Below, in pieces: positions 2 to 21,066 of a DNA stretch of 24,785 nt (the stretch's first letter is position 1; the number at the start of each line of letters is the position of its first letter). Below the pieces are notes generated by a model, which was not told the origin of the DNA, did not search any database, and was given only the letters and a program-made list of their open reading frames with translations. The position numbers and the translations under genes were made by a program. Origin of the DNA: a virus. The stretch is from IMG/VR virus record IMGVR_UViG_3300020463_002012, positions 1 to 24,785 of that record. One strand, written 5' to 3'.

Positions 2-724
2 ACACTAGCACGAGCTATGGACTATGGTTGGATGTTTAGAATTCCTGTATGGGGTAGAAAAGGTAACGGATACATCTATGATAGCGATTACATAAACGCT
101 GATCAAGCCAAAGAAGAAGTAGAAAAATATTTAGGTTATGAAATAGAAGTTGCAAAAAATATACAATTTGATCCAGGAGCAATAGACAAACCTTGGATTG
201 CAAATTGTTGTGCTATTGGTCTTAGTGCTAATTTTGTAGAACCTTTGGAAGCAAGTTCAATAGGTACAAGCATTAACCAATCATTCTTATTAGCACAAAG
301 ACTTTCTAATTACAACCAAGCAACAATAGAATTGTATAACAAAGAGATTGATGCGATAATGGAAAACATTAGAGACTTTATAATATTGCATTACATAAGC
401 CCTAGACGTGATACTAAATTTTGGCAAGACGTTGCAGAAATAGAACTTCCAGAAAGTTTAAAGAATAATTTAGCAATGTGGAAACACAGGCTACCAGTTT
501 CAGACGATTTTGCTAATAAAACTTTGTTTAATGAGTTTAATCATGCATTAGTATTACATGGTATGGATATCTTTGATAGAGATAGTTTACAAAAACAATA
601 TAACGATCTACACACTGATGCAAAACAATATGTAGAAAATATCATTCAAGAGAAAGAAACGTTTGATACAGTGAAAGCCATACCGCATAAAATGATGTTA
701 GATTTATTGCGGAGGCTGGTGTGA
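2..724 (+). CDS. Flavin-dependent tryptophan halogenase-like protein (C-terminal part, 5' end outside window)
   Basis: The reading frame is open from base 2, so the true start lies upstream; about 240 C-terminal residues are present. They contain the segment GWMFRIP (residues 9-15 of the visible part), the counterpart of the WxWxIP motif of FADH2-dependent halogenases, and EPLEASS, the counterpart of the EPLEST block that carries the catalytic Glu in PrnA-type enzymes. Family members use FADH2, oxygen and halide to form hypohalous acid and halogenate an aromatic substrate. The second Trp of WxWxIP is Phe here. The stop overlaps the next start (GTGA, 721-724), so it is probably co-translated with the SGNH-like gene. 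It most resembles halogenase 2 of this window (also EPLEA-type, not EPLEST). The flavin-binding N-terminus cannot be inspected. Family assignment is firm; the substrate is unknown. Confidence 0.85.
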   Translation, partial: TLARAMDYGWMFRIPVWGRKGNGYIYDSDYINADQAKEEVEKYLGYEIEVAKNIQFDPGAIDKPWIANCCAIGLSANFVEPLEASSIGTSINQSFLLAQRLSNYNQATIELYNKEIDAIMENIRDFIILHYISPRRDTKFWQDVAEIELPESLKNNLAMWKHRLPVSDDFANKTLFNEFNHALVLHGMDIFDRDSLQKQYNDLHTDAKQYVENIIQEKETFDTVKAIPHKMMLDLLRRLV

Positions 725-1530
725 GGGTTTTTGCATTTGGTTGCAGTTTATCTCAATATTTTTTTCCTACTTGGGCTGACATATTAATCTTTCAATATAA
801 AAATAATGGATACTATGGAGAGAACTGGGCAAGAAGTGGTGCAGGTAATCAATTTATTAGCACAAGAGTATGGGAAGCCAACACCGTACATAAGTTTAAT
901 GAATCTGATGTCATATTATTACAATGGACAAGCATGTTCAGAGAAGATAGATATAATATAGGCAAGGGTTGGTGGACACCTGGTAATTTTAATTTTCAAG
1001 ACGAGAAGGTTTTCAAAGATCCTATACACGCAGTTATGAGAGATTGTGCTTTGATAACTAGCACAACAAAAGCGTTAGAAACTTTAGGTTGTGAAGTTAT
1101 AACTACAGGATTTAGAGAGTGGCAAGAAGGCTGGACAGAACTTTCTACAGAATTTACCGATAGACAGTTTTTAGAATTAGCAGATGTAAGAGCAATTCTT
1201 GAACAGTATAAAGATGAAATAAAATTATCAACACCCCCAATACTTAATGCCTTAAACTTTGGCGACAGTGATGAATTTTTTAAAAGCAGACCAACTAGTA
1301 TTCCAAGTGCAGATGAAAAACTGAAGCATTTAATTACTCCAGAAGTTCATCCTTTGACTCACGAAGCCGCAACATTTGTAGACGAACATGTAGAACAACT
1401 CAATGATCAAACTATAGATTTTGTGGAAGAATGGAAAGAAAAATTAAGCAAAGACACTATATTATTATACGAACTTAACTGGTTCAACAAAGTCAAATGC
1501 GGTTGGTCAGATGATAGATGGAGACCATAA
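721..1530 (+). CDS. SGNH/GDSL-like hydrolase family protein
   Basis: This 269-residue protein opens with a beta strand followed by FGCSLS (residues 6-11), which matches block I of SGNH hydrolases with Ser9 in the nucleophile position and Cys in place of the usual Asp. ARSGAGN (37-43) resembles block II and supplies the oxyanion Gly. DVILLQWTS (63-71) sits where block III would be but lacks the usual Asn. VHP (209-211) may be the catalytic His of block V, although the Asp of DxxH is missing. The fold call is reasonable; esterase or acyl-hydrolase activity is uncertain. The GTG start is supported by GGAGG at 711-715, five bases upstream, and by the 4-base overlap with the halogenase. Its stop overlaps the next gene. 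The context suggests that it modifies an acyl or sugar group on a surface polymer, which is inference. Confidence 0.7.
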   Translation: MRVFAFGCSLSQYFFPTWADILIFQYKNNGYYGENWARSGAGNQFISTRVWEANTVHKFNESDVILLQWTSMFREDRYNIGKGWWTPGNFNFQDEKVFKDPIHAVMRDCALITSTTKALETLGCEVITTGFREWQEGWTELSTEFTDRQFLELADVRAILEQYKDEIKLSTPPILNALNFGDSDEFFKSRPTSIPSADEKLKHLITPEVHPLTHEAATFVDEHVEQLNDQTIDFVEEWKEKLSKDTILLYELNWFNKVKCGWSDDRWRP

Positions 1531-2093
1531 TGACAACACCGGTAATAGGATTGGACAGAGACGGAACCATTAATGTAGATGTAGGAGGATATGTTACTAA
1601 ACCAGAACAATTCCAACCCATTGAAGGCAGTTTAGAAGCCGTTAAGATGATTAGAGATAAAGGGTATGACGTTGTTATTTTAACTAATCAAGCAGGAATT
1701 CAAAAAGGTGTAATGGATACTGTTGATGTGGATATTGTGCATAATCATATGTTAGCTTTATTAGGTGAAATAGGTTGTAAAAGCATTAACGGATTATATT
1801 ATTCTACTACACCATTTAAAGACGATCCTTATAGAAAACCTAACGCTGGCATGTTCAAAAGGGCATCTGCAGAGATAGGTGTTGACTGGTCAAATGGTCT
1901 TTACGTCGGCGATAAAATAACAGATTTAAAAGCGGCTGTAAAGGCAAAAGCAAAACCGGTGCTTGTACGCACAGGATATGGTGAAGAAACTATTAAAAAA
2001 CTTAATACTTTCGCTAACAAAGACTTGAAAAAACGCACTGACATCTTTGATAATCTTAATAAGTTTGCCCATAGTTTGGTGGATCTATCATAA
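1530..2093 (+). CDS. gmhB: HAD-superfamily phosphatase, GmhB/HisB-N type (D-glycero-D-manno-heptose 1,7-bisphosphate 7-phosphatase-like)
   Basis: This 187-residue HAD phosphatase has all four motifs: LDRDGT (8-13, nucleophile Asp9 and acid/base Asp11), LTNQAG (51-56), Lys103 in YRKPNAGM, and VGDKITD (126-132). DRDGTINVD and TNQAGIQKG are typical of the GmhB and HisB-N group. GmhB removes the C7 phosphate in ADP-heptose synthesis; the later steps (HldE, HldD) are encoded at 11053-13145. The cysteine loop that binds zinc in bacterial GmhB is absent and replaced by a short STTPFKDDPY stretch, so a different sugar phosphate or histidinol phosphate cannot be excluded. I chose the ATG at 1530 because it overlaps the upstream stop (TAATG) and has GGAG at 1520-1523, six bases away; an in-frame ATG at 1518 would add four residues. 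Confidence 0.75.
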   Translation: MTTPVIGLDRDGTINVDVGGYVTKPEQFQPIEGSLEAVKMIRDKGYDVVILTNQAGIQKGVMDTVDVDIVHNHMLALLGEIGCKSINGLYYSTTPFKDDPYRKPNAGMFKRASAEIGVDWSNGLYVGDKITDLKAAVKAKAKPVLVRTGYGEETIKKLNTFANKDLKKRTDIFDNLNKFAHSLVDLS

Positions 2094-2124
2094 TTTATTA
2101 TAGTTCTACATATCTGTTTATAAA

Positions 2125-2132
2125 GATAAATA
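2125..2132 (+). promoter_or_regulatory. Candidate T4-type late promoter box for the virion gene block
   Basis: GATAAATA lies in the 57-base gap before the gene at 2151 and matches the -10 late box of T4-like phages (TATAAATA; shorter forms in marine relatives). The same box precedes gp13, gp18 and gp19 here. A Shine-Dalgarno GGAG at 2139-2142 follows. Confidence 0.6.
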
Positions 2133-2150
2133 CAATATGGAGCATGTATA

Positions 2151-2660
2151 ATGAATAAACAGCTGAATAATTTATTATCTAAAGGTCAAAACAACACCAT
2201 AGAGCTATCAAACAGAAGTAGTTTTAGTTTCAAGGGAAACTGGATAGGAGTATATCCTAGCACAGTGATGGACAAATGGCATGTTGGTGATTTTAGTAGT
2301 GTTATCTACCAGATCACAGTTGAATTTGGATCTAATGAAAAAGAAATATTGCAACTATCTGTAGTTGCAAGACCAGACAGAGCTGTTGCTACAATCTTTG
2401 GAAGATCAAGCATAAATCAAGAATTAATTACTCTATCAGTTACGGTAGATGCTGGTTTATGTTATATAAACGTTACGCCTATAAGTGGATACGCAGGCGC
2501 TAAATTAATATTCCATGGCACTTACGCAAAAACTATAAATCAACTTGTTCCGCCGGCTATTGTCGCAGATACGTCTACAGAAGAGTCAAGTGGAATAAAT
2601 ACTTTTGATAGTTTAACAAGTACAATGGACAATACAACACTAACATTTGATAAGGGTTAA
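2151..2660 (+). CDS. Virion structural protein, probably tail-fibre associated
   Basis: This 169-residue protein has no signal peptide or membrane segment. The central part (about residues 25-125) is beta-rich, including WIGVYPSTVMDKWHVGDFSS and a predicted jelly-roll-like run of strands; the last 35 residues are Ser/Thr-rich and probably flexible. It heads a block of four virion genes after a late box and has GGAG eight bases before its ATG. I recall similar short proteins before the fibre genes of marine T4-like phages, but I cannot confirm the match here. The stop is followed four bases later by the next ATG. A role as fibre base or adaptor is inference from position. Confidence 0.6.
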   Translation: MNKQLNNLLSKGQNNTIELSNRSSFSFKGNWIGVYPSTVMDKWHVGDFSSVIYQITVEFGSNEKEILQLSVVARPDRAVATIFGRSSINQELITLSVTVDAGLCYINVTPISGYAGAKLIFHGTYAKTINQLVPPAIVADTSTEESSGINTFDSLTSTMDNTTLTFDKG

Positions 2661-2663
2661 GAG

Positions 2664-4145
2664 ATGGCAAAATCAGTATTAAACATAGGTTCAGCGGCAA
2701 ACGATGGTTCTGGTGATACACTGAGAGGTGGAGCAACCAAGATCAATTCAAACTCCGATGAGCTCTATAATAGCTTAGGCGATGGCACAACTTTAAAAGA
2801 TATCGTCAATTCAAATTTGGAATTAGATGTACCAAATGATGACACAAAAAGAAATAAAATATCATTTCATGTAGCAACAACAAATTTGCTTAATGCAATT
2901 TCGCCTACTACATACCATGGCGCAATTCAACACAATCATGAAACTGGTACAGTACATGTTGCACATGCAGGTGCATGGCATAAACTTTTATTGGATGCAA
3001 GTGGAGGAGCCATCACAAACTACACAGATCCATTAAAAAGTGTTGCTTATGTAGGAAATATTAATTCATTAACAGACGTTGATACAACTAGTACTGCACC
3101 ACAAACAGGAAACGTTTTAAAATGGGACGGTGGTAAATGGGCACCAGGAACTGACGCAACATCAGGCGGCGGCGGAACTGACGCTGATACTTTAGACGGA
3201 CAAGATGGTTCGTACTACCTTAATTATAACAACTTAAATAACAAACCTACTATACCTTCAACACTTTTAAATTTAAATATTTCAGACGGTACAAGTGGAC
3301 AAGTTTTAAAAACAAACGGTAATGGTACATTTGAATTTACAACAGTAAGTGCAGGTGGTAATCAAAATGTGTTTAATACAGTAGATGGTGACACAGGAAC
3401 AACTACTGCAAATTCTACTACAGATACATTAACTATTGCAGGAGGAGCCAACATATCAACACAGATATCAGGCGACACAGTTACCATTGCATACACAGGT
3501 TCACCTAACTCAGGTGAAGAAAACCAAAACGCATTTACAAATGTTGCATCAGATTCAGGCACAGCAGTTGCAGATTCTAAAACAGATACTTTGACTATTG
3601 CAGGTGGTACAAATATTTCAACAGCAGTTGCAGGTGATACTGTTACTATTAATTACTCAGGTACAAATACTTTAGCAACATTAACAGACACTGATACTAC
3701 AGGTGCAATAGCAGGTAATGTGCTTGTATACAACGGAAGTAGTTGGGTAGATCATGGACAAACTGTTGATCAAATGGCTTATCCTGCTATCACAACTTTG
3801 ACTGTTACAGCAGATTCGTTTAACGGATACAAGTTTGATCAATATGGTAACACTGAAGACCCTACAATTTATGCCTTAGCAGGGGCAACCATTGCATTTA
3901 AGTTATCAGGTTTAGGAAGTCATCCATTTTTGATTCAAACAAGTGGTGGCTCAAACTACGACAACGGATTAGTACATGTTGAAACTACCGGAGCAGAATC
4001 AACAGGTACGTCTGCACAAGGTAAGACAAGCGGAACATTATATTGGAAAGTACCAGCAAATATTTCAGGCAACTATCAGTATAGGTGTTCAAGTCATGGT
4101 GCAATGCAAGGTACCATTGTCATTAAAACTATGAGTGCAATATAA
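2664..4145 (+). CDS. Tail-fibre-like virion protein with C-terminal cupredoxin-like domain
   Basis: This 493-residue protein has a modular build. The N-terminus includes LNIGSAANDGSGDTLR and KINSNSDELY, a pattern common at the start of phage fibre proteins. The middle holds WDGGKW and YLNYNNLNNKPTIPS-type fibre modules. Two tandem 47-residue repeats follow (233-279 and 287-333, each ending in DTVTI plus a short strand). The C-terminal 120 residues look like a cupredoxin: a strand and turn ALAGATIAFKL, then His420 in SHPFLI, a Tyr/Trp-rich strand, and CSSHGAM with Cys475, His478 and Met481. These four are the ligand types of a type-1 copper site. Copper binding is inferred; the domain could be a redox-inert fold that binds a receptor. 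The start has AGAG just upstream and sits four bases after the previous stop. Confidence 0.75.
   Translation: MAKSVLNIGSAANDGSGDTLRGGATKINSNSDELYNSLGDGTTLKDIVNSNLELDVPNDDTKRNKISFHVATTNLLNAISPTTYHGAIQHNHETGTVHVAHAGAWHKLLLDASGGAITNYTDPLKSVAYVGNINSLTDVDTTSTAPQTGNVLKWDGGKWAPGTDATSGGGGTDADTLDGQDGSYYLNYNNLNNKPTIPSTLLNLNISDGTSGQVLKTNGNGTFEFTTVSAGGNQNVFNTVDGDTGTTTANSTTDTLTIAGGANISTQISGDTVTIAYTGSPNSGEENQNAFTNVASDSGTAVADSKTDTLTIAGGTNISTAVAGDTVTINYSGTNTLATLTDTDTTGAIAGNVLVYNGSSWVDHGQTVDQMAYPAITTLTVTADSFNGYKFDQYGNTEDPTIYALAGATIAFKLSGLGSHPFLIQTSGGSNYDNGLVHVETTGAESTGTSAQGKTSGTLYWKVPANISGNYQYRCSSHGAMQGTIVIKTMSAI
3360..3662 (+). repeat. Two 141-base repeats inside the cupredoxin fibre gene
   Basis: Copy 1 spans 3360-3500 and copy 2 spans 3522-3662, separated by 21 bases. 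Both encode 47 residues with the shared frame NQNxF...TDTLTIAGGxNIST...GDTVTI. The copies match well at protein level but are diverged in DNA, so the duplication is old or selected for variation. Repeats of this type usually lengthen fibre shafts. Confidence 0.85.
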
Positions 4146-4159
4146 GATAAGGAAATAAA

Positions 4160-4717
4160 ATGGCAGGCACAATAATTAACGACAAGTTTCAAGCACAGTT
4201 TGGATTTGAAAGTCCAAAATATACTGTTGACACGGCTGGAAAAATTACAGCAGAGACACTAGACGTTAAATCAATTTTGCTAAATGGTAAATCATTTGTG
4301 CAGGCCGCAAGTGAAGATCAAACAAGTGATGATACTGGTACAACAGTATCAAACTCTTTTGATAGTTTAGCTGTGAACGGCGGAGTTTTTAAAGTAAATG
4401 ATTCTGCTAACAACACAGTTTTATCAGTAATAAATTCAAGAATTGTAATCAACAACATAGGAATACCTGGCACGATTGATAATGTTGACATAGGTTACCA
4501 TACACCTGTACAGGTGAAAGCATACAACATTGATATGACAACAGCACCTGACAGTACAGCAAGTAATTTGAATGTAAGTGGTTCAAATCTTAACGGAGAT
4601 TTAACAGTGATTGACAACCTATTAATGCAGAGAGATCCTACAGCAGGCACACATGCCGCGAGAAAAGGATATGTTGATGCGACAGCAACAGCACTAGCAG
4701 TGGCATTTGGAGCATAA
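4160..4717 (+). CDS. Virion structural protein, tail-fibre-like
   Basis: This 185-residue protein begins with MAGTIINDKFQAQFG and then a run of short beta strands with Ser/Thr/Asn-rich turns (for example DGSLAVNGG-like and NNIGIPGT segments). It ends with DPTAGTHAARKGYVDA, a module often found at the C-terminal end of phage fibre subunits, where it precedes a trimerisation or attachment region. AAGGAA at 4149-4154 serves as ribosome binding site. The next gene starts three bases after its stop. Function beyond fibre or baseplate decoration is not visible. Confidence 0.65.
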   Translation: MAGTIINDKFQAQFGFESPKYTVDTAGKITAETLDVKSILLNGKSFVQAASEDQTSDDTGTTVSNSFDSLAVNGGVFKVNDSANNTVLSVINSRIVINNIGIPGTIDNVDIGYHTPVQVKAYNIDMTTAPDSTASNLNVSGSNLNGDLTVIDNLLMQRDPTAGTHAARKGYVDATATALAVAFGA

Positions 4718-4720
4718 ACA

Positions 4721-7700
4721 ATGGCAAAGAAAAAAATACAAAATTATACTTTTTATCCTGGAATAGGTTTAAATGATGCAGTTTACCCAAATGCAAAATG
4801 GTTACTAAATGCAAATAAAACTTTTATTCAATATGAAGTATCAGCCTGGATTGCAAGACAAGTAGCAGACAATACTACCGGCTTTGAAGGTTATACTTAC
4901 AGTGATGAAAAATGCAGACGAGATACAGGCTATAACATAGATGCTTGGTTGCATGATATACAATATGGCGGAAACCAAGAAACTTATAGAATTGCAAATA
5001 CCTATTGGGAAAGAGAAGTTGCACAAATTGATGGAACAAGGATTCCAGAAATTAGAGCAAAAGAATTTACTAGAGATTTAATTAATAATCACGTGTTTGC
5101 CAATTCAGCACAGACAACACCATATCAAAGCACATACGCCCAAACAACTAACACAAGTTACACAGCAGAACCACAAGCTGGTACTAGAATACAAACACTT
5201 TCTGCAATAGTAATAGAAGTTATTACTAATGGATTAAGTTCTTTACCTACTTTTGAAAGAAAAGGTTTGGGTCATATTAGATTTGCAGGAAACTATGATG
5301 CAAGTGACTTATTGATTATAACAAACTCGACAAAGTCAGAAGTCATATACAACTTTACTGATGCTACAAAAGGTGGTAAGGTAACAAGAGTAGATGATGT
5401 TACACCTAGAGACAGTGGTGGTTATGTTGTAAAATATGATTCAGTTAACGCTAATGAGAATGCAGATACAGACTTTCCAAAATATTTACAAACAACTGAT
5501 GCTATTACTATAGTAGATTTAGTTTTTAACACGAGCACACAAGCAACAACAGATGAAATTCAAATCTTTGTAGACAACGAAGAACAGACAACTAGACCAT
5601 ATCGCTTTGGTACTGATGCAATTGAACGTATGCGTATTGCACCTCCATTATCCATGCTTGATGCTGACTTTGAATATGGCTTACAGCCAACCAAATGGTC
5701 AGCTATTGGAATGATGCGTGGTTATCCTAGTGTATACGAATTGCCAGGAACTGATACGCAAGTGGCGACAGTTACAACAGATGCTTCGTCAGGCTCAGCA
5801 GGAATTGGTGCTAGTTTAATTACTGTAACAACAATAGGTGGACACGGATTTATTGCGGGTACACCAATTACAATCAAAGCATTGGAAGATGCTGTTGTTG
5901 GAGCCGCTAGAGCAGAAGGTTCGTTTATTATTAATACTGTACCTACAGCTACAACCTTTACTTTTTATGCAAAATCAAAAGTTGGAACTACAAATGGACA
6001 GGTACTTTCAACAACATATACACAACTTAGACAAGGTGCTTTTTATACAGGTGCTAGTTTAGGTCAGCCACAATTTGATGTATTCAGTAATGGTACTAAT
6101 GGTACAATGAACTTATCACTTGCGGCACAGATAAGCGAAAATAGAATTGCAACCACAGGAGACGTTCCAGAAATTGGTGCTCCCATAAATTATCCATCAG
6201 CGTTTGCTATTGGTACACAGGTATCAGCTGTTGCAAATACACCGGGTGGTACACCGTTATCAATGAACTTGACTGCTGATATCAGTAGTGGTAATACACA
6301 ATTTACAGTTAGTTCAACAACAGGTATTGTTCCAGGACTAGCGGCAAACAATGGCTCAGGCGATGCTATATTTGTTAACAGCATAGTTGGATCAACAGTA
6401 TCTATGAGTGGACAGTTTACTTCAACTATTAGTAAAAATACAGAAACATATACAGGTGTCTCAGGAACAATTACAGCACCAGCAGGTGTTAATGCACAAT
6501 TTAATATTAGCAGAAGTGGTTCAGCTTATACAGTTGATGGTATTAACCAAGCAGGTTCAGGTTACAAAGCAGGTGACACAATTAAGATTCTAGGTACAAA
6601 CTTAGGTGGATTGACAACAGCCAACGATGCTACAATATTAATTACAACAGTTAATGGATCCGGTGGTGTTACAGGCGCATCTGTAACAGGAACAGCATTA
6701 AGCGGAAGCATTACATGGCAAGATGTAACAGCAACTTACAATAACGGTGCAGGTACGTGGGGCGGAACACAAGTTGATATTGCATGGGAAAATAATGCAT
6801 ACAATACAATTAGTTTTAATTCTCCAAATGAGACTTCAGGATATGCAGTAAACGATATAGTTAAACTAGCAGGTTCGAATGTGTCTCCGGGTACTTCGTC
6901 CGATGGTTCACAATCATACGGAAGTGGTAATGATATACTAGCCTATGTTGCGGCCTTAGGTGCAGGTGGAACAATTACAACATTAACAATAGTGAATGAT
7001 TCAGGTAGAGTTGGTACTCCGCCAGCATTGACATTAAGTTATTCTTTTGGACCTTCAGCACAATCTTTCACAGGCGGTTCAGGTTCAGACTTTGCTTTTA
7101 ATATTAGTAATCAAACAGGTGCAAGTGCAACTTACTCTGTTCAAATCTCAGCAAATGGTACTGGGTATAACACAGCAGACACTATTGTAGTTACAGGAAA
7201 TAAAGTGGGTGGTGCAACAACAGCCAACGATATATATCTTAGAGTAGTTTCTGTAGATGGTGCAGGTGGTATCACTGACGTGAGATTAGAAGGCAGTGAC
7301 GAATCCACACTTGCTGTAGCATATAATGGCTCATCTGTTCAAGGTAAAACAATGACAAATGTTGTTGGTGCAGGAGCGGTTTTTGACGTTACAAACAACG
7401 GAACAGCATATTCTGTAGCAATAGATACTGCTGGCGAAGATTACTATCAAGGTCAAACATTTACTATTGCAGGAACACAGTTAGGTGGATCTTCTCCTAC
7501 TAATGATGCCACAGTTACAATTGACAGCGTAAACACAACAGGAAGTGATGATCAAGGTATAATTGCAACAGCAAGTATTTCAGGTACTGCTCCAACATTG
7601 CCTACTAGCTTTACAGGTGTTCCAGGAACTAATCTAGCACATGCAGGTGCAAGTGGAACTTTCAATATGACTAGAACACAAGGATCATATTCGATTGCCA

Positions 7701-10693
7701 TTAATGCTAATGGATCAGGTTACAAAGTAGGAAATATTATTACAATAGTTGGCACAGACTTAGGTGGTGCAACCACTGCCAATGATGCAGAAGTTACAGT
7801 TACAGGTGTAGATGGATCTGGTGGTTTAAGTACTGCTACTGTTACTGGAACGGGTGTTGCAGGTGGATCATTAAATTTGGTTAATGGTATTACCTTAACT
7901 GATTTTACAACACAAGCAATCAATCAAGGAACAAACATACCATTTGAAGCACTTGCAACGGTAGAAGTATCGTGGCCATATGCACATGGTATTGTACCAG
8001 GTGATACATTCATTGTTGATATTAATTCAGACGATGGCGGAACAAACAACCACCAATTAGCAGGTGGTTCGTTCATGGCAATCACAGTTCCGACTACTAA
8101 GAAAATTAGATATAACACAAGAGCTCCTGGTAATATTAAAGAATTTGTTACTGGTACATCAGTTGAAGATAAGGTGCAAGGTAACGTTTACATGCGACCT
8201 GACTCATTCTTCATACACAGACCATATGACGGTGGTGTGCAGTTAGGAACAGGTGGACCTCAACACGGTGCTCAAGCAATTAGACAGAGTAAAAAATACA
8301 TTAGATACCAGTCTGGTAAGGGTATTATGTATACAACAGGTGCACTTTTTGCCCCATCCTATGATGTAAGATCTATTACTTCAACAGGTACAGAGATAGG
8401 CGCTACACTAACTATCGTTAGTGATGACAATGATCATGGTGCTCAAGTTGGTGGTAAAATAAGAATTATTGGAGTTGAATCAGCAGGATATAACGGTGAA
8501 TATATAGTCAATCAAATCGTTGACGAAAGAACGTTAAAGGTACTTTCAACACGTAGACTTGGTGCAACAACAGCCGTGCTAGGTTTTGCGGCACAAATGA
8601 CAGTCGTTGGTTGGCATGGTGCTACTGTGCGTTCAGGAATCTTTGATGACCAAAACGGAATTTATTGGGAATATGATGGTAGCAATGTAAGTGTTGCTCA
8701 AAGAACTTCTACAAAACAAATAGCAGGAACGGTAGGAGCATCACCAGATAGTAACCTAATTACAGGTAGCAACACAAGATTTAGAGATCAGCTTAAAGCA
8801 GGTGATAGAATTGTTATTAAAGGAATGACACACGTTGTATCAAATGTTGATTCACAAACACAAATTACAATTACTCCAGATTATAGAGGAGTAAATCAAA
8901 TATATGCGGCTAAGGTTAACCTTATTGCTGACAAGAAAGTACTACAAGAAGAATGGAATTTAGATAGACTAGATGGTACAGGACCAAGTGGGTACAACAT
9001 GGATGTTAGATACATGCAGATGATTGGTATTCAATACAGTTGGTATGGTGCTGGTTTCATTGACTGGATGGTTAGGGGTGCCGACGGTAACTTTGTGTTC
9101 TGTCACAGAATGCGTAACTCAAACGTAAACACAGAAGCATTTATGAGATCAGGTAACTTACCTGTGCGTTATGAAGTTACTAATGAAGGAGCATTTGATA
9201 GACTAGCAAGTGATATTACTGATGCACAAACTACACTGACACTTGTAGAAAGCAAATTCTTTCCAAGCTCAGGTACTGTGTTTATAGATAACGAGCTTAT
9301 ATCTTATACATCAAAAGATGATACAACTAAAACACTTTCAGGTTTGACTAGAGGTACTACATTAACAAACTTCCAAGCAGGTGCAACTAGACAGTATTCA
9401 GCAAGTCCGGCAAGTGGACATGCGGCAAGAACTGGTGTCATATTAGTAAGTAATACAATTACTCCACTCATATCACACTGGGGATCAGCATTTATTACAG
9501 ACGGAATGTTTGATGAAGATAGAGGATATATCTTCTCATACACAGAAGCAGGGTTGTCAGTTTCTACAACAAGACAAACTGCGTTCCTAATTAGACTAGC
9601 ACCTAGTGTTAGTAACGCTATTGTTGGAGATTTAGGAGATAGAGAACTTCTAAACAGAGCCCAGTTGCTTATGCAAGGTTTAGAGATCACATCAGATGGT
9701 GTTGATCCAACTAACAATGCAAACATTATTACAGGTGGTATTGTTGTTGAAGGCATTCTTAACCCACAAAACTATCCACTTAACCCAAGTGATATTGGTT
9801 GGCAAGGATTGTCAGGACTAGCCCAAGGTGGTCAGCCTAGCTTTGCACAGGTTGCCTCGGGTGCATCGGTTAACTGGAACTCAGGTGATACGGCAACGTA
9901 TGAAACAGGTGCCGTGATGGCTCAGGTGACTACAACAGCAACATTAATGCCATGGTGGTCATTTAGAACTAATAGAAACTATGCTTACTTTACGCAGAAC
10001 AGTTGGGAAGATGCTAATCTATCAGTTGGTGATGAAGTTAATGCAGACGGTGGAGGTAATGAATACTTCCCAGCAGGAACAACAATTCAAAGTATTACTG
10101 ACCAAACAATTTATGGACGTTATCTAGTTTACTTTTCACAAAGATCAAATTCGAACTCGAGCAACGCCGCAACGCAAACATTCCAAAAAGGTGGCGACTC
10201 TGTAAACAGCGTTAGTGCATTGTTCCTTAAAAATGTTTGGGACGCAACAGGAGCCAAGTCAGGTACGATTATTGGTAACTCAGGAGGTGCTCCAACAGAC
10301 CAAAGTGACATCAGTATGCCAGCGGGATCCTATGTTACAAACGTTCAAGGACCGTTGCTATTTGGTAATCAAGGTAGTGGTGGAATTGAATATTATAATG
10401 TTACATTTAACAATGCTTATACTGGTACAGTTTCACCAGGAGACTTGTTTAACTTTACGTTCCAACAACCTCCATATGCACAGCCAGGCGAAACAGTCTT
10501 TTCATTTATTGCTCAGCCTGGAGAAAGATCAACATTGGATCTTGCATTATTGAAAGAATTGACTAATACTACACTAGGAGGAAGAGGTACTTTTCCAAAT
10601 GGTCCAGATGTGTTAGCGATTAACGTGTATAAAACTGTTGGTACAACAACAAGTGCGAATATTATTGTGAAGTGGGGTGAGGCTCAGGCTTAA
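4721..10693 (+). CDS. Giant virion structural protein (1990 residues), probably tail-fibre or baseplate-associated
   Basis: This is the largest gene in the window. The N-terminal 100 residues include KCRRDTGYNIDAW (64-76) and a following QYGGN, a conserved block that I recall from large structural proteins of marine T4-like phages. Residues about 590-1045 hold four clear copies and one degenerate copy of a 65-72 residue beta-rich repeat (see the repeat entry). The rest has further strand-rich modules and ends in a compact C-terminal domain with AINVYKTVGTTTSANIIVKW. No Shine-Dalgarno is evident; the ATG lies three bases after the previous stop, so translation is probably coupled. Its 3' end overlaps the convergent cupin gene by 32 bases. 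An enzymatic domain was not recognised. A role in host contact or in the baseplate periphery is inferred from context. Confidence 0.75.
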   Translation: MAKKKIQNYTFYPGIGLNDAVYPNAKWLLNANKTFIQYEVSAWIARQVADNTTGFEGYTYSDEKCRRDTGYNIDAWLHDIQYGGNQETYRIANTYWEREVAQIDGTRIPEIRAKEFTRDLINNHVFANSAQTTPYQSTYAQTTNTSYTAEPQAGTRIQTLSAIVIEVITNGLSSLPTFERKGLGHIRFAGNYDASDLLIITNSTKSEVIYNFTDATKGGKVTRVDDVTPRDSGGYVVKYDSVNANENADTDFPKYLQTTDAITIVDLVFNTSTQATTDEIQIFVDNEEQTTRPYRFGTDAIERMRIAPPLSMLDADFEYGLQPTKWSAIGMMRGYPSVYELPGTDTQVATVTTDASSGSAGIGASLITVTTIGGHGFIAGTPITIKALEDAVVGAARAEGSFIINTVPTATTFTFYAKSKVGTTNGQVLSTTYTQLRQGAFYTGASLGQPQFDVFSNGTNGTMNLSLAAQISENRIATTGDVPEIGAPINYPSAFAIGTQVSAVANTPGGTPLSMNLTADISSGNTQFTVSSTTGIVPGLAANNGSGDAIFVNSIVGSTVSMSGQFTSTISKNTETYTGVSGTITAPAGVNAQFNISRSGSAYTVDGINQAGSGYKAGDTIKILGTNLGGLTTANDATILITTVNGSGGVTGASVTGTALSGSITWQDVTATYNNGAGTWGGTQVDIAWENNAYNTISFNSPNETSGYAVNDIVKLAGSNVSPGTSSDGSQSYGSGNDILAYVAALGAGGTITTLTIVNDSGRVGTPPALTLSYSFGPSAQSFTGGSGSDFAFNISNQTGASATYSVQISANGTGYNTADTIVVTGNKVGGATTANDIYLRVVSVDGAGGITDVRLEGSDESTLAVAYNGSSVQGKTMTNVVGAGAVFDVTNNGTAYSVAIDTAGEDYYQGQTFTIAGTQLGGSSPTNDATVTIDSVNTTGSDDQGIIATASISGTAPTLPTSFTGVPGTNLAHAGASGTFNMTRTQGSYSIAINANGSGYKVGNIITIVGTDLGGATTANDAEVTVTGVDGSGGLSTATVTGTGVAGGSLNLVNGITLTDFTTQAINQGTNIPFEALATVEVSWPYAHGIVPGDTFIVDINSDDGGTNNHQLAGGSFMAITVPTTKKIRYNTRAPGNIKEFVTGTSVEDKVQGNVYMRPDSFFIHRPYDGGVQLGTGGPQHGAQAIRQSKKYIRYQSGKGIMYTTGALFAPSYDVRSITSTGTEIGATLTIVSDDNDHGAQVGGKIRIIGVESAGYNGEYIVNQIVDERTLKVLSTRRLGATTAVLGFAAQMTVVGWHGATVRSGIFDDQNGIYWEYDGSNVSVAQRTSTKQIAGTVGASPDSNLITGSNTRFRDQLKAGDRIVIKGMTHVVSNVDSQTQITITPDYRGVNQIYAAKVNLIADKKVLQEEWNLDRLDGTGPSGYNMDVRYMQMIGIQYSWYGAGFIDWMVRGADGNFVFCHRMRNSNVNTEAFMRSGNLPVRYEVTNEGAFDRLASDITDAQTTLTLVESKFFPSSGTVFIDNELISYTSKDDTTKTLSGLTRGTTLTNFQAGATRQYSASPASGHAARTGVILVSNTITPLISHWGSAFITDGMFDEDRGYIFSYTEAGLSVSTTRQTAFLIRLAPSVSNAIVGDLGDRELLNRAQLLMQGLEITSDGVDPTNNANIITGGIVVEGILNPQNYPLNPSDIGWQGLSGLAQGGQPSFAQVASGASVNWNSGDTATYETGAVMAQVTTTATLMPWWSFRTNRNYAYFTQNSWEDANLSVGDEVNADGGGNEYFPAGTTIQSITDQTIYGRYLVYFSQRSNSNSSNAATQTFQKGGDSVNSVSALFLKNVWDATGAKSGTIIGNSGGAPTDQSDISMPAGSYVTNVQGPLLFGNQGSGGIEYYNVTFNNAYTGTVSPGDLFNFTFQQPPYAQPGETVFSFIAQPGERSTLDLALLKELTNTTLGGRGTFPNGPDVLAINVYKTVGTTTSANIIVKWGEAQA
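6494..7855 (+). repeat. Five-fold internal repeat in the giant virion gene
   Basis: The clear copies are 6494-6691, 7091-7294, 7376-7591 and 7655-7855 (protein 592-657, 791-858, 886-957, 979-1045); a degenerate copy lies near 6782-7006. Each has the pattern FNxxxxxxxYxVxI...GxGYxxGDTIxIxGTxLGGxTTANDA...VxGxGG. The first and last copies are also similar at the DNA level, so recombination between them could change copy number. Confidence 0.8.
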
Positions 10694-11069
10694 CTTCCTG
10701 ATCTTTTTGACTATCTCCAGGAGCAATCCTGTAATTATCCTCAACCGAATCAGCAGTACTAACCTCAGTAACACTACTTCCTGGCTCCATGCAAACTAAT
10801 TGATGTGGTTGTAAAGGAGGATTATGCCAAGTCATTCCTTGTGTAAGTTCTTGTTCATATATCTTGGATGTTTTAGTATCTATCCATCGAAGTAGAAACT
10901 TGCCGTTGTTTACAAACCAAGATTCATCTTTTTCTTTGTGAAAATGTAAACTGAATTTTGACCCTACTTTTTCAAATACCATGATTTTACCACAGTACTT
11001 TTCATTGGTTGCCCATATTAATTCATAGCCCCAACCTTTTTCTACTTTACCTTCAAGTCTCTCGGTCAT
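10662..11069 (-). CDS. Cupin-fold sugar isomerase/epimerase-like protein (mannose-6-phosphate isomerase type II-like)
   Basis: This 135-residue protein is a single cupin domain. It begins with EKGWGYELIW, matching the KPWG.E start of type II mannose-6-phosphate isomerase cupins. HFHKEKDES (42-50) is cupin motif 1 with ligands His42, His44 and Glu49; PPLQPHQL (84-91) is motif 2 with His89. EVST is the usual strand before the C-terminus. The tail (about 112-135) is polar and Pro-rich. It is the last gene of the minus-strand chain and overlaps hldD by 17 bases, so it probably acts on a sugar phosphate or nucleotide sugar related to heptose. A non-enzymatic sugar sensor or a different epimerase is possible. 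Its 3' end overlaps the convergent giant virion gene by 32 bases. Confidence 0.8.
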   Translation of the reverse strand: MTERLEGKVEKGWGYELIWATNEKYCGKIMVFEKVGSKFSLHFHKEKDESWFVNNGKFLLRWIDTKTSKIYEQELTQGMTWHNPPLQPHQLVCMEPGSSVTEVSTADSVEDNYRIAPGDSQKDQEVKPEPHPTSQ

Positions 11070-11898
11070 TTTTTACTATATCCTTGTAATATTCTTCTAG
11101 TGTGATCCAATGCCTAATTGGTATAGTATTATGTAGCTTGGCATTATCGGCACACGTATATTCTTGGTATTGGTTTTTTAGGTGGTATGGCATGTCTATA
11201 TACTCTATTTTTGCACCTGTATTCTTTGCAACTAGTTTTGCAACGCTTTCTATGTCTACTGATTTACTTGTGCCTAAGTTGTAGACACCACTTGCATCTT
11301 GGTGCATCATTTCTTCTTGTATTCTTACTAGATCATAAACACAAACTAAATCTCGCTTGTACTTGTCACTGTTCTTAAACAGTTTGATTACACCATCTGT
11401 TGCGGCTTGTACTTCAAATTTACTGACCATACTCATTTGATCTTTCTTATGTCCTTCTCCAGGTCCATATACATTGAAGTATCTATAACTTTGCACCAGC
11501 ATGTTAAAATTTTCTATACCATTATCTACCAAAAACTTATCAATTAAAAACTTACTCCATGCATATGGTGTTTGCGGATAACATGGATCTTCCTCATTGA
11601 AGTTGGTGTATGGCCCATAAACAGCGGCGGTACTAGCTATTTGTATGTTAGTCTGATAGTTGTCACAAATTTGTAAAAGTCTCATGGTAAATTCGTAATT
11701 ATGTTTCCAGACTTTGTCAATATCTTTTTCAGTAGTGTCAGAAATAGCACCACAATGTACAACCCAATCATACTGTTCAACAGCAGGAACTACATTTTCA
11801 ACCCAATCAAAGCCCTCTACATCGTGACCTTTGTGTATTAAATATTGGGACATGTTACTGCCTATAAAGCCTTTATGCCCAGTGACTAAAATTTTCAT
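11053..11898 (-). CDS. hldD: ADP-L-glycero-D-manno-heptose 6-epimerase
   Basis: This 281-residue extended short-chain dehydrogenase has an N-terminal NAD(P)-binding motif GHKGFIGSN (7-15), HCGAISDTTEKD (48-59), the active-site strand ASTAAVYG (88-95) and YAWSK (112-116, catalytic Tyr and Lys). The HldD signature is very clear: RYFNVYGPGEGHK (139-151), followed by FKNSDKYKRDLV and HLKNQYQEYTCAD. HldD converts ADP-D-glycero- to ADP-L-glycero-D-manno-heptose, the form used by most LPS heptosyltransferases. It is shorter than the E. coli enzyme (310 residues) but keeps the core. Its start overlaps the hldE stop (ATGA), so translation is coupled. No heptosyltransferase is present in the window; the product may feed host enzymes or ones encoded elsewhere in the phage. 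Confidence 0.93.
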   Translation of the reverse strand: MKILVTGHKGFIGSNMSQYLIHKGHDVEGFDWVENVVPAVEQYDWVVHCGAISDTTEKDIDKVWKHNYEFTMRLLQICDNYQTNIQIASTAAVYGPYTNFNEEDPCYPQTPYAWSKFLIDKFLVDNGIENFNMLVQSYRYFNVYGPGEGHKKDQMSMVSKFEVQAATDGVIKLFKNSDKYKRDLVCVYDLVRIQEEMMHQDASGVYNLGTSKSVDIESVAKLVAKNTGAKIEYIDMPYHLKNQYQEYTCADNAKLHNTIPIRHWITLEEYYKDIVKNDRET

Positions 11899-13145
11899 TT
11901 TATAATTTTACCTATTGTTTTTGTTGTGCTTATGCCTTCTATAGTTGGAAATATGACTACCTCTGCAAGTTCATGTCCAACTACTGTTTCGACTGTATAA
12001 TCTCCACCTTTAACGATTACATCAGGTTTATGTGACACAATACTATTTAATGGAGTATCCTCGTCAAACACTACAACCTGGTCCACCCATGGTAAAGATT
12101 CAAGCTGAGATTTTCGTTCATGTACATCGTTAATGGGTCTAGTTTCACCTTTTAAGCGTTTAACACTGGCATCGTTGTTAATGCCCACAATAAGTCTTTC
12201 CCCCTGTGTACGGGCAAATTTAAGCAGTTCTAGGTGCCCTTTGTGTAGTACATCAAATACTCCGTTTGTCCATACAGTAGTTTTTTTACGTAAATCTTTT
12301 TTGGTTATTACTGTAGTGCCTTGGCGTTCAACAGCTCTAGCGGCGGCATAACAAGCAATCTCACAAGCATCAAAAACGTCTTTGCCATCATTAAGACAGT
12401 GAGCTATTACTGCCAAAACTGTATCTCCTGCACCAGTAACATCTACTATTTGATTCGTTGGTTCTTTATAGTGTTTGTATCTAGTATCTTCATTAAGAAC
12501 ATGCATACCATTGGCTCCATCTGTAACTACTAACCATTGCCAATTATGTTTTCTCATAATATTACATGCATCTATTTCATCAAATTTTCCAAACCATTCG
12601 GTATATTCTTTCATATTAGGCTTGACTAAGAATGCTCCATCATAAAAATAATCATCCTGTTTAGGATCCACAAGTACTTTTGCTTTGCGGAATATCTGAC
12701 TGAGTGTATTTGCCTTTACTGTTCCTTTTGCGTAATCACTTATGCAAATTATATCATCTGGCTTTAAATTTTTTAGTAAATTATCTATTACTGAATCTTG
12801 TAGATACGGCTTTTCTCTATCCCATCTTAAGACTTGTTGTCCACCTTGTCCTACAAATCTTGTTTTGGTAGTTGTCATATCAGCATCGTCCTGTATATAA
12901 CAATCTATGTTTGTTTTTTCAAGTAATTCTAATAATTTATAACCTTCTTTATCTTGAGCAACACAACTATATAACTCTACAGTTCCGTTTATACTATCTA
13001 AATTTGTTGCTAAATTGCCTGCTCCTCCGATGCTATAATTATATTCATCTTCTTTCATTACAATTACAGGAGCTTCAGGACTTACTCTCTGACATGAACC
13101 ATAGATCCACCTGTCGAGCATGATATCACCGTAGATTTTTATCAC
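11895..13145 (-). CDS. hldE: Bifunctional heptose-7-phosphate kinase / heptose-1-phosphate adenylyltransferase
   Basis: This 416-residue protein fuses two domains in the HldE order. Residues 1-285 are a PfkB-type sugar kinase with GDIMLDRWIYG (6-16), the GGAGN loop (40-44) and DVTGAGDT (235-242, catalytic Asp241). Residues 290-416 are a nucleotidyltransferase with TNGVFDVLHKGH (293-304) and a C-terminal GISTTKTI (404-411). HldE phosphorylates heptose 7-phosphate at C1 and, after GmhB acts, adds AMP. The E. coli protein has 477 residues, so this one is compact, with most loss in the kinase. The GTG start overlaps the halogenase 2 stop (GTGA, minus strand); the first residues IKIYGDIML fit the family start. 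It is followed directly by hldD. Confidence 0.93.
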   Translation of the reverse strand: MIKIYGDIMLDRWIYGSCQRVSPEAPVIVMKEDEYNYSIGGAGNLATNLDSINGTVELYSCVAQDKEGYKLLELLEKTNIDCYIQDDADMTTTKTRFVGQGGQQVLRWDREKPYLQDSVIDNLLKNLKPDDIICISDYAKGTVKANTLSQIFRKAKVLVDPKQDDYFYDGAFLVKPNMKEYTEWFGKFDEIDACNIMRKHNWQWLVVTDGANGMHVLNEDTRYKHYKEPTNQIVDVTGAGDTVLAVIAHCLNDGKDVFDACEIACYAAARAVERQGTTVITKKDLRKKTTVWTNGVFDVLHKGHLELLKFARTQGERLIVGINNDASVKRLKGETRPINDVHERKSQLESLPWVDQVVVFDEDTPLNSIVSHKPDVIVKGGDYTVETVVGHELAEVVIFPTIEGISTTKTIGKIIK

Positions 13146-14623
13146 TGCATATCTCGTATATAATCAGTATTACTAGGTAAATGCATAGTTTTTCCATCAT
13201 GTTGGGCAACATGATATACGTATGCAGTATCTGAAATTCTTGCATCGTTATTAAAATGTAATTCTCTTCTACAAATTTTATCTGTTAGTTTACCTGTACC
13301 AGCTAATACATAACTCCACAAGGGCCATCCTGCACAACCTTCATGTCTAGGAAACATTGTGTGATTAGGTACTCTATTTTTACAAACTTCATGCATTGTT
13401 CTTACAAAATCAGTGGTTGTTTTACCGCTATCAATGTATTTCCAAAATTCTGTATCGTTACGCCCACATGTATAGTGAGCAACTAAAAAGTCTTTTAAGG
13501 TATCGTATAAGTGACCGTTTTTATCATTGTAATCATCTATTTGTCCTACATTACACGTTTCATCTCTATCCTTACCTAAGCAACCAAAAACAAAATGCTT
13601 TAATTGAAATATTGTTGTGTGAATACTTGTTGCTTCTAATGGTTCTGCAAAAGCGGCACACAATCCTACAGATAATACATTTTTAATCCATAATTTTTCT
13701 TGTCTTCCGCTGTCAAATGTTAACAACCTTATTGGATCTATTTTTTTACCTATAGTTTGTTCTAATTCTTCTTGTGCTTTGTCGGGGGTTACAAAGTCTG
13801 CACAAAATACATATCCACAACCTCTCCTATTCAGTGTAGGTATTTGCCAACACCATCCATTCTTTTGAGCCCATGCATTTGTAACAGGTTCAATTACTTC
13901 ATCGTCCTCGTAAGGCAGTAAAAAAGGTAGTGCAGAATTTACTGGTAAATTATCTTTGTAGCTTTTCCATTTGCTACCAACTGCTCTCATCAACACTTGA
14001 TTAAAACCACTAGCATCAATAAACATGTCGCCTTGAACAGTTTGTCCGTTACTTAATTTTAATTCTGTAACCCAACCTTTTTCTTTATCTTGTATTACAT
14101 CGTCAACTTCACTGTCTATATGTTTTACAGTATCACATACCTTTTTAAAGTATTGTCCTACCTTGTGTGCATCAAAATGATATGCATGATTTCCTTTATT
14201 TTCTACAAAACTATTTTTGTTATGATGTATTTTGTACCCTAGTTCTGTTGAAATATGCAACATGTCTTGTTCACGATAACCTAACGCATTTTGGAATACA
14301 ATATCTACAACATCTCCACTGGTCGGAGAACCATCTATTGGACCATAGTAATGTGATTTTGTATCCTTATTCCAACCTATATGTTTGATACCTAGCTTAA
14401 TAGTTGCATCACATTCGCGAATAAAATCTTGCTCTACGCACCCAAGATTCCACATCTCATTTTGTACAATATTAGTAAGAGAACCAGTACTGCCTTCTCC
14501 TGCACCTATGATTCCTATCTTACTACTTTCAATTACTGTTACATCGTGTTCTGGTCTAATTTTTGATATCATTAACGCGGCTAACCAACCAGCTGTGCCG
14601 CCGCCTACAACCACTACTTTCAT
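13142..14623 (-). CDS. Flavin-dependent tryptophan halogenase-like protein (halogenase 2)
   Basis: This 493-residue full-length protein has the FAD-binding GGGTAGW (7-13), GAGEGS (40-45), the catalytic Lys76 in ATIKLGIKHIGW, and the WxWxIP motif as WCWQIP (257-262), which separates FADH2-dependent halogenases from monooxygenases. The catalytic-Glu block reads EPLEATS (327-333), with Glu330 kept and Ala in place of the Ser of EPLEST. These enzymes halogenate indole or phenol rings and need a separate flavin reductase; none is encoded in the window. VirX1, from a marine cyanophage, is a characterised viral member. The gene overlaps halogenase 1 by one base (TAATG) and hldE by four. It groups with the partial halogenase at 2-724 by the EPLEA motif. 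The natural substrate is unknown. Confidence 0.9.
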   Translation of the reverse strand: MKVVVVGGGTAGWLAALMISKIRPEHDVTVIESSKIGIIGAGEGSTGSLTNIVQNEMWNLGCVEQDFIRECDATIKLGIKHIGWNKDTKSHYYGPIDGSPTSGDVVDIVFQNALGYREQDMLHISTELGYKIHHNKNSFVENKGNHAYHFDAHKVGQYFKKVCDTVKHIDSEVDDVIQDKEKGWVTELKLSNGQTVQGDMFIDASGFNQVLMRAVGSKWKSYKDNLPVNSALPFLLPYEDDEVIEPVTNAWAQKNGWCWQIPTLNRRGCGYVFCADFVTPDKAQEELEQTIGKKIDPIRLLTFDSGRQEKLWIKNVLSVGLCAAFAEPLEATSIHTTIFQLKHFVFGCLGKDRDETCNVGQIDDYNDKNGHLYDTLKDFLVAHYTCGRNDTEFWKYIDSGKTTTDFVRTMHEVCKNRVPNHTMFPRHEGCAGWPLWSYVLAGTGKLTDKICRRELHFNNDARISDTAYVYHVAQHDGKTMHLPSNTDYIRDMQ

Positions 14624-16131
14624 TATAGAAATCCTTCTCGCTGTCCTTGAGATGCCTTATACCAATCCATTCCCATGTTGGTCGATTCAATAGCATTGAT
14701 ATGACTAATACTAGTCCTCTTTCTAACTTCTTCAGCCCGTAAAAATTCTGTCATTGCAAAATCTAATTGCATTGGATTATGTCTATTCATATCTTTACTT
14801 ACAGGATAACCCATTTGTATTAACCATAGTTGCCAGTTCTGTGGATGAAATAAAGTATTACTAGAAACATCACTGTAAAAAGATCTTTGTGGATCACGCA
14901 ACCATTCCTCGTACCATAAATGTTTGTCTGATTTTACATGCATAAATTTTACGTAGTCCCAAAAAGGAGTGTTCCATTCTGTGTCCGCATAATGACTGCC
15001 TACAAAATCTACAGCATCTGAGTACCAATTCATCATTGACATATTATAACTTGCTATAGCTTCTTCATTATAAACATATTGTGGTATCTGTTTTGCAAGT
15101 TCTTGTACACCATATGTCATACTTGCTAAACCTGTGCTTTCTAAAGGTTCAATAAATCCTCCGCTTAGGCCTAAAGATACAACATTTTTCTCCCAAAAGT
15201 TTTCGCTATAATAAGGTGTCCAGTCAATTAACTTTAGATCTTCTGGTTTTATCCTACCATTCCAGTGATCACTAAAATACTGCATTGCAGTATCTGGATC
15301 TGTAATATCTCTATTGAAAACTAATCCTGAACCTATTCGTGATTGTACTGGTATTTTCCATATCCAACCATGATCAACTGCTGGACATTTTACATATGGT
15401 GTACACTCTTTTTCAAAATCTTCATATGGTACATGTCCTGCTACAGCAGAGTTGGTAAACAGTCTACCTGTATCAAGTAATTCCTTCTTTTTTTGGCCTT
15501 TTAAAAGCGATATAAAGCCCGTACAGTCGAGGTAAAAGTCTGATACATGTGTTGCACCGTTCTTAAGATCAAGGCTGGTTATAAAGCCGTTTTGATCCCT
15601 ATTTACATTTATAACATCACTCTTAATTGTTTTTACAGTATCCTTACAAATGTTCTGTAACTCAGTAACCAGCTTACCTGCATCTATGTGATATGCAAGT
15701 GTTTCAAAACTGTTCATCATATCTACTTGATTATCCATCACAGTTTCATAGCAAGGTAATGCATGTTTGCAGTAATCTAGTTCTTGTTTTTGAGCCCAGA
15801 TATCGTATTGTGTACATTTTAAATCAAAATAAGATCTATTTAAATAGAAAGGATGCCATACTCTGCCGTTAGGATTTTTCCAATGTGGAAAGTCTATACC
15901 TGCTTTGTATGTTGCATCTACATTTTGAAACCATTGTGTTAAATCTATACCACATTGTCTTAAGAAGTGCGGAAAAGTTAAAACAGTTGCTTCTCCTACT
16001 CCTATAGGATTACCTACTTCCTTATCTATAACAGTAACAGGTAAATCCCAAAAATTATTTTGTATATATGTAGCCGCCAGCCATGCCGCTGATCCACCAC
16101 CCACTATAGTAATATTCTTAATTCGTTTCAT
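14623..16131 (-). CDS. Flavin-dependent tryptophan halogenase-like protein (halogenase 1)
   Basis: This 502-residue full-length protein has FAD-binding GGGSAAW (11-17), GVGEAT (44-49), catalytic Lys76 in ATYKAGIDFPHW, WIWKIP (257-261 region, WxWxIP) and the canonical EPLESTG (328-334) with Glu331. All known catalytic residues of the PrnA-type family are present, so activity is likely given FADH2. It is clearly different from halogenase 2 outside these motifs, so the pair is not a recent duplication. The start lies inside the end of the Nudix gene (14-base overlap), and the stop overlaps the next start. Possible substrates include free tryptophan, an indole signal, or an aromatic group on a surface polymer or protein; the sequence does not say which. 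Confidence 0.92.
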   Translation of the reverse strand: MKRIKNITIVGGGSAAWLAATYIQNNFWDLPVTVIDKEVGNPIGVGEATVLTFPHFLRQCGIDLTQWFQNVDATYKAGIDFPHWKNPNGRVWHPFYLNRSYFDLKCTQYDIWAQKQELDYCKHALPCYETVMDNQVDMMNSFETLAYHIDAGKLVTELQNICKDTVKTIKSDVINVNRDQNGFITSLDLKNGATHVSDFYLDCTGFISLLKGQKKKELLDTGRLFTNSAVAGHVPYEDFEKECTPYVKCPAVDHGWIWKIPVQSRIGSGLVFNRDITDPDTAMQYFSDHWNGRIKPEDLKLIDWTPYYSENFWEKNVVSLGLSGGFIEPLESTGLASMTYGVQELAKQIPQYVYNEEAIASYNMSMMNWYSDAVDFVGSHYADTEWNTPFWDYVKFMHVKSDKHLWYEEWLRDPQRSFYSDVSSNTLFHPQNWQLWLIQMGYPVSKDMNRHNPMQLDFAMTEFLRAEEVRKRTSISHINAIESTNMGMDWYKASQGQREGFL

Positions 16132-19242: not shown

Positions 19243-19266
19243 AGTATTTATCTACGCATAAATACT
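19243..19266. promoter_or_regulatory. Palindromic divergent late promoter between gp14 and gp13
   Basis: Two perfect 9-base inverted arms (19243-19251 and 19258-19266) flank a 6-base centre. The arms contain ATAAATAC on each strand, so each is a late-promoter -10 box pointing outwards: GATAAATA on the minus strand (19252-19245) towards gp14 and CATAAATA on the plus strand (19257-19264) towards gp13. GGAG at 19273-19276 serves gp13; gp14 has no visible ribosome site. Confidence 0.65.
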
Positions 19267-20045: not shown

Positions 20046-20054
20046 AAAAACCAC

Positions 20055-20083: not shown

Positions 20084-20107
20084 AATTACTTTATACGAGG
20101 ATAAACT

Positions 20108-20999: not shown

Positions 21000-21003
21000 A
21001 ACG

Positions 21004-21010: not shown

Positions 21011-21021
21011 CATACCTTTTT

Positions 21022-21058: not shown

Positions 21059-21066
21059 AAAAATCG

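Follow-up and report, generated by a model that had tools for sequence, protein, structure and literature searches.

Three old clades of flavin-dependent halogenase in the neck and tail gene islands of a large T4-like marine phage: a possible late tailoring set

Introduction

What use does a phage have for three flavin-dependent halogenases (FDHs), and what might these enzymes act upon? The question is raised by IMGVR_UViG_3300020463_002012, a linear IMG/VR virus record of 24,785 bp, the whole of which is referred to here as the window and the source of which is a large marine phage of T4-like type. The window carries three genes of the FDH family: halogenase A (502 aa; 14623..16131, minus strand), halogenase B (493 aa; 13142..14623, minus strand) and the C-terminal half (residues 240-479) of halogenase C (2..724, plus strand), which is truncated by the contig end. 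Since prnA was noted in cyanophages, the published suggestion for phage halogenases has been antibiotic production. As judged from their sequences, A, B and C belong to three clades that are old and evolved separately, none of which is that of the phage enzyme VirX1. It is put at about an even chance that these three FDH-fold enzymes form a late tailoring set, with tail or adhesin proteins of the phage itself, or the glycan that these carry, as the likeliest target.

The three halogenases

All three genes match the Pfam family Trp_halogenase (PF04820) far above its cut-off of 21, with B at E 3.8e-92 (310 bits), A at E 2.6e-86 (290.7 bits) and the C fragment, which covers positions 253-448 of the profile only, at E 3.8e-44 (151.7 bits). 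The three open reading frames (ORFs) also match PHROG 2928. An earlier, sequence-only reading had proposed two complete genes and one partial gene of this family, and this is borne out. That the segment at 2-724 is a pseudogene fragment is ruled out, as it lies at the contig edge and the ORF is whole in the near-identical contig L122, where it spans 8196-9635 and encodes 479 aa, with 235 of the 240 residues in the window portion being identical.

When aligned to PrnA, A has K76, E331 and W256/W258 and B has K76, E330 and W257/W259, such that the Lys76 earlier ascribed to both complete copies is indeed found in each. The WxWxIP motif, which reads GWIWKIP in A and GWCWQIP in B, and the catalytic Glu had been claimed as well; this holds for A and B, whereas C keeps the Glu but reads WMFRIP. 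Full-length C in L122 has K72 (outside the window portion), GWMFRIP and E322, and all C-type proteins read WxFx[IL]P. The GxGxxG motif for flavin adenine dinucleotide (FAD) is present in B and in full-length C, and the corresponding loop of A reads GGGSAA, as in most A-type proteins.

The predicted structures assign the FDH fold to B with high confidence and to A with good confidence. The AlphaFold model of B has a mean predicted local distance difference test (pLDDT) score of 91.7, and its best listed Foldseek matches are Thal, PrnA and PyrH (E ~1e-40, template-modelling (TM) score 0.85-0.88). For A the mean is 79.3 and the best listed matches are Xcc4156, Thal and PyrH (E ~1e-34, TM ~0.8), with the loop near the catalytic Glu being less certain (pLDDT <50 at 324-329). 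The earlier idea that both complete proteins could work as halogenases fares well as far as the fold is concerned, in that the models match FDHs and no blocked site is seen, the halide and FAD sites of A and B having been judged from residues only.

Conservation and clades

Conservation was followed across 253 distinct full-length (at least 430 aa) phage homologues. The catalytic Lys is found in 253/253 and the Glu in 252/253 of these, and both are kept in every A (93/93), B (87/87) and C (40/40) protein. Around the Glu the sequence is E-A-[TS]-S in the majority of B and C proteins and E-S-T-G in PrnA and most A proteins. The PrnA substrate residues His101 and Phe103 are kept in A (93/93), while in B these positions hold Gly/Ala/Ser and Ile/Leu (Gly and Ile in window B) and in C His/Gln and Ile/Val/Thr. 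The separate clades and the differing pocket residues are consistent with different substrates or halides, as the earlier reading had allowed, but go no further than that.

In a tree of 65 sequences, A, B and C each form one clade (support 100/100, 100/99 and 100/98). Bacterial sampling in this tree is skewed towards B, since it came from a single bacterial scan with the B alignment as query. Each clade covers two phage lineages: the marine lineage of the window and of G005, a 261,806-bp contig with which the window is collinear throughout, and a second lineage, represented by G017, G024, G025, G027 and G028. Clade A takes in the enzyme of phage S-SSM7, C joins P-SSM2, and the nearest relatives of B are alphaproteobacterial (Devosia, Rhodobacterales). 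VirX1 lies outside all three and groups with other copies from Syn10, S-RIM44, P-TIM40 and P-RSM6 (100/100). A and B are only ~27% identical and are thus not a recent duplication; a recent tandem duplication giving the pair is ruled out by this identity together with the separate clades, which upholds the wide divergence noted earlier.

The three clades also travel together. A, B and C occur on the same contigs in both lineages, with three to five family members per contig; G017 has six matches that come down to five genes, as two are fragments of a single frame, and A or B is duplicated in some contigs. Shorter, divergent PF04820 relatives of 389-407 aa with a different FAD loop were also seen, at L079 7169-8377(-), L153 2039-3229, L150 14814-15983 and L147 1622-2845; one of these four, that in L147, has lost both catalytic residues.

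Operon structure and late-type promoters

On the minus strand the gene order is a virion gene, a sheath-stabiliser-like gene, Nudix, A, B, HldE, HldD and cupin. The two virion genes at the operon head, one tail sheath stabiliser/completion-like (phrog_11196/227) and one neck-like virion structural (phrog_11591), occupy 16580..19236, and a 12-bp gap separates gp15 from the Nudix hydrolase gene (16118..16567, minus strand; PF00293, E 2.8e-15), which has a 14-bp overlap with A. Each gene of the run from Nudix to cupin overlaps its neighbour, by 1-17 bp. Downstream of B lie a gene for an HldE-like bifunctional heptose-7-phosphate kinase/heptose-1-phosphate adenylyltransferase (11895..13145, minus strand; NF008454, E 8.9e-103, with PfkB and CTP_transf_like domains), one for an HldD-like ADP-heptose epimerase (11053..11898, minus strand; TIGR02197, E 1.1e-64) and, as the final gene, that for a cupin-fold protein (10662..11069, minus strand; PF07883 weak, WbuC-like weak, phrog_7851).

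The gap ahead of this operon holds the sequence ATAAATA, the core of the T4-type late promoter. A late-promoter-like copy lies at 19245..19251 on the minus strand, 15 bp upstream of the A-B operon, with a similar site in the same gap in G005. Seven copies are found in the window, and in five cases a gene start preceded by a gap lies no more than 45 bp downstream of the copy (binomial 4e-10, with the zones set post hoc); G005 has similar sites in the same gaps. Neither TATAAATA nor ATAAATA is enriched by count across the whole window, and only the positions of ATAAATA are informative. Their placement indicates, but does not prove, that the halogenases are expressed late with the neck and tail proteins.

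C has a corresponding setting on the plus strand. It is followed, with a 4-bp overlap, by the gene for a 269-aa protein (721..1530) that has orthologues in relatives and no Pfam, PHROG or NCBIfam match, and this ORF in turn overlaps by 13 bp a gene for a GmhB-like D,D-heptose 1,7-bisphosphate phosphatase of the HAD type (1518..2093, plus strand; NF006506, E 1.3e-40; PF13242). The HldE, GmhB and HldD homologues all score under the NCBIfam equivalog (curated) cut-offs. They stand for three of the four steps of the ADP-heptose pathway (GmhA, HldE, GmhB, HldD), which is therefore incomplete; a search of 30 related contigs, that of 261 kb among them, gave no GmhA-type SIS_2 protein.

Islands in related contigs

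The wider surroundings of the halogenases are seen in the related contigs. In G005, 2-oxoglutarate (2OG)-Fe(II) oxygenases and a carbamoyltransferase are encoded upstream of C, along with a DUF6445 protein, another protein of 350 aa and a tandem run of three Gly-rich proteins of 278 aa; genes of these kinds also occur in the near-identical contig L122. The 350-aa protein has a weak heptosyltransferase match (TIGR02201, E 0.0018); for its reading as a GT9 enzyme there was no PDB support and no solved relative. The tandem 278-aa proteins, each with 9-11 Trp and 28-32 Cys, are highly conserved and adjoin halogenases (L189 6259-8792 in G005, L122 2-1474 and L123 31-2562); they are candidate substrates or adhesins. 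The DUF6445 protein recurs near the C-type halogenase in window-lineage contigs (L189 1-488 and the islands of G001, G002, G006-G008, G010, G014-G016 and G018), and its family is absent from 14 control genomes.

In the second lineage the halogenases alternate with 2OG oxygenases and have as neighbours a tail assembly chaperone, Cpn60 and tail-like proteins of Gly-rich and LamG type. In L079, the Cpn60 chaperonin and tail assembly chaperone genes, at 2904-4580 and 4636-5076, adjoin the halogenase/oxygenase island. Of the 46 2OG domains in 12 partly related contigs, 33 have a halogenase no more than 6 kb away, as against 9.8 expected (5,000 simulations, maximum 20).

Comparison with known systems

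Phages had been taken to carry single halogenases, and this does not hold. S-RIM44 has three, tandem pairs occur in P-TIM40, P-RSM6 and Syn10, from which VirX1 comes, and a 2010 survey already recorded two copies each in two cyanophages (Sullivan 2010, PMC3037559). VirX1 (PDB 6QGM) and the tandem copies of these four phages likewise have the conserved Lys/Glu pair, have WxWxIP as A and B do, are often in tandem and lie in an accessory island among structural genes. VirX1 nevertheless belongs to another clade than A, B or C, and its phmmer matches (E 1.9e-46 with B, 8.6e-43 with A) are weaker than those of bacterial Trp halogenases.

The gene surroundings in other isolates are often similar. 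In S-CREM1 a collagen-like protein of a tail-fibre family is followed by a halogenase and then by a JmjC protein together with at least five 2OG oxygenases; in S-SRM01 a tail fibre and an adhesin tip flank the halogenase; and in S-WAM1 the order is tail fibre, halogenase, 2OG oxygenase. S-RIM44, Syn10, P-TIM40, P-RSM6 and Sf-CH11 have single or tandem halogenases within structural-gene islands, which in S-RIM44 and Sf-CH11 come shortly before gp13, and in HTVC008M terminase genes flank the halogenase, with dioxygenases nearby.

The closest parallel is with S-SSM7 (GU071098), the island of which holds a clade-A halogenase (SSSM7_125, 42.6% identity) with HldE, HldD, cupin and 2OG homologues and adjoins gp13/gp14. 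Its carbamoyltransferase is 67% identical to the G005 copy and its putative glycosyltransferase 56% identical to that of the relatives. It differs in having a single halogenase and an HldE split into two genes, and in being a Kyanoviridae cyanophage. The placing of the halogenase set beside heptose genes, which the sequence-only reading had singled out, is therefore real but not without precedent.

Among bacterial enzymes, PrnA, Thal, PyrH, RebH and Xcc4156 share the fold and catalytic residues of the window enzymes at 23-28% identity, though the substrate pocket of the PrnA type is partly not conserved in B. The Devosia and Rhodobacterales halogenases, at ~34-40% identity the nearest bacterial relatives found for B, are single genes, several of which adjoin sugar/peptide transporters and a GH4 glycosidase, unlike window B. 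Proteobacterial tandem sets (four in Erythrobacter L234, three in Aquisalinus L231) resemble the window in having several PF04820 genes in a row; however, these are chromosomal and adjoin, by eye, TonB-receptor-like outer-membrane genes, not tail genes.

What the halogenases may modify

For the reaction itself, reduced FAD supplied by host reductases would combine with oxygen and seawater halide to give hypohalous acid, which the conserved Lys/Glu pair would steer to an electron-rich aromatic group. The absence of a flavin reductase from the window, remarked upon earlier, is confirmed for PF01613 and PF03358 and extends for both families to related contigs: PF01613 was not found in 30 contigs, including that of 261,806 bp, and PF03358 was not found in 10, other reductase families not having been searched in either case. 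A and B would be read late, in one run of overlapping genes after the neck genes gp14/gp15, and C in a run through the tail-side island. The halogenases, 2OG/Fe(II) oxygenases, carbamoyltransferase, putative glycosyltransferase and ADP-heptose enzymes would together make up the tailoring set, and its likeliest target would be tail or adhesin proteins of the phage itself, or the glycan upon them. A, B and C are presumed to be active, to be expressed late and to share a pathway, and tail proteins or tail glycan are their presumed substrates. FDHs are known that act on peptide Trp, namely ChlH, MibH and SrpI (PMC12518702), and the FDH-like flavoprotein QhpG acts on protein Trp (PMC7876137).

Several observations weigh against this reading. 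Some copies lie outside tail islands, as in S-B64 (among replication genes), P-SSM2 and the third copy of S-RIM44, near talC. Heptose genes were not found in the examined second-lineage loci, the glycosyltransferase assignment of the 350-aa protein is weak, and in G005 five of the seven 2OG domains are far from halogenases and two are close. A 147-kb contig has a single C-type copy only, and many contigs are closely related, with the result that counts are not independent.

An unlikely, but serious, alternative is that a small molecule such as tryptophan, indole or another aromatic is halogenated, with a signalling, antibiotic or anti-competitor role in infection. The best-characterised relatives, PrnA, Thal, PyrH and RebH, which are top structural matches, use free Trp; VirX1 takes many small aromatics in vitro (PMC8407142, a review); an antibiotic role has been proposed for a cyanophage halogenase (PMC2984593, PMC9964418); and bacterial relatives of B adjoin ABC transporters and a GH4 glycosidase. 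However, other natural-product genes are not seen in the window or island, B is without the His101/Phe103 of PrnA, the late-type promoter and tail-gene setting fit less well, and three to five separate halogenases per contig are many for one small molecule.

It is improbable that the enzymes act with the heptose genes on a host-surface glycan, lipopolysaccharide (LPS) or capsule, so as to alter receptors and block superinfection. A and B do share one overlapping-gene operon with HldE/HldD, and a carbamoyltransferase and putative glycosyltransferase lie in the wider island, yet sugars are normally not FDH substrates, since they have no electron-rich aromatic ring, the promoters are of late type, and the examined loci of the second lineage hold A, B and C without heptose genes. 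The LPS of the marine Synechococcus strains studied is without heptose (PMC4515613), and S-SSM7 bears the set all the same. That a Synechococcus phage should have a heptose module despite such an LPS favours a phage-made glycan over host LPS.

To a similar degree it is doubtful that these are FDH-fold flavin monooxygenases which hydroxylate or cross-link aromatic residues in the manner of QhpG or LodB, an idea most plausible for C and the 389-407-aa relatives. Weak matches to profiles of LodB, QhpG or GoxB were seen for C and B, C is without the second Trp of a motif said to block monooxygenation, and Cys/Trp-rich Gly-rich proteins are present in the same island of relatives; against this, the equivalents of Lys79/Glu346 are invariant in A, B and C, and PF04820 scores are far above any maturase match. 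That the genes are decaying or selfish cargo without function, as a patchy phage distribution and some copies at unrelated places might suggest, is very improbable given intact frames, catalytic residues invariant in hundreds of diverged homologues, three clades held together in two lineages and a purifying pattern that already disfavours it.

The tailoring of the phage's own tail or its glycan can be put in a more general form, which is tentative and somewhat doubtful: in large T4-superfamily phages, a conserved set of at least three non-redundant halogenases, with 2OG oxygenases and a carbamoyl/heptose module, may halogenate and hydroxylate the phage's own Gly-rich tail/adhesin proteins or glycans during late assembly.

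Further features of the window

Between the two halogenase loci are plus-strand tail and virion structural genes (2151..10693; phrog_677, phrog_5838), among them genes for the baseplate wedge-tail fibre connector, at 2664-4145, and, at 4721-10693, for a structural protein of 1990 aa. Beyond the A-B operon lies the neck protein gp13 (head-tail adaptor Ad2; 19284..20045, plus strand; phrog_211), the best isolate matches of which are jumbo phages of Sinorhizobium, Pseudomonas and Agrobacterium. A cyanophage identity is not supported, psbA not being found in 30 relatives. The stretch 19284-24390, with gp13, a deoxynucleotide kinase and a 1093-aa tail sheath, has an order common to the Sinorhizobium jumbo phage Phosso, at the gp13-kinase-sheath locus of which a halogenase island was not seen. 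A small minus-strand ORF (20664-20999), with Cys-pair motifs and HNH-like by eye, runs antisense to the nucleotide kinase gene, overlapping its end, and is kept in G005 (73%). G005 also has thirteen transfer RNA genes in two groups (L182 18-2382 and L185 6842-7093).

Meaning for phage biology

That phages have FDHs, with several per genome, and that a halogenase stands beside heptose genes in S-SSM7 were already known. What is new is that three old non-VirX1 clades are found together, in tail/neck islands, in each of two divergent phage lineages, where a contig may hold as many as five family members. Within the open-licence literature no paper was found that brings tail proteins, halogenases and 2OG oxygenases of phages together in a single tailoring system; the published guess for phage 2OG oxygenases is DNA repair. 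Enzymology is offered three uncharacterised halogenase clades with apparently intact active sites. The conserved trio, the late-type promoter and the tail-fibre/2OG setting give a claim that can be tested, namely chemical tailoring of the tail by some phages, and if true this would amount to enzymatic halogenation of virions. The recurrence of the enzyme trio in other phages suggests that such viruses add chemical decoration to some target late in infection, and their own tails may be that target.

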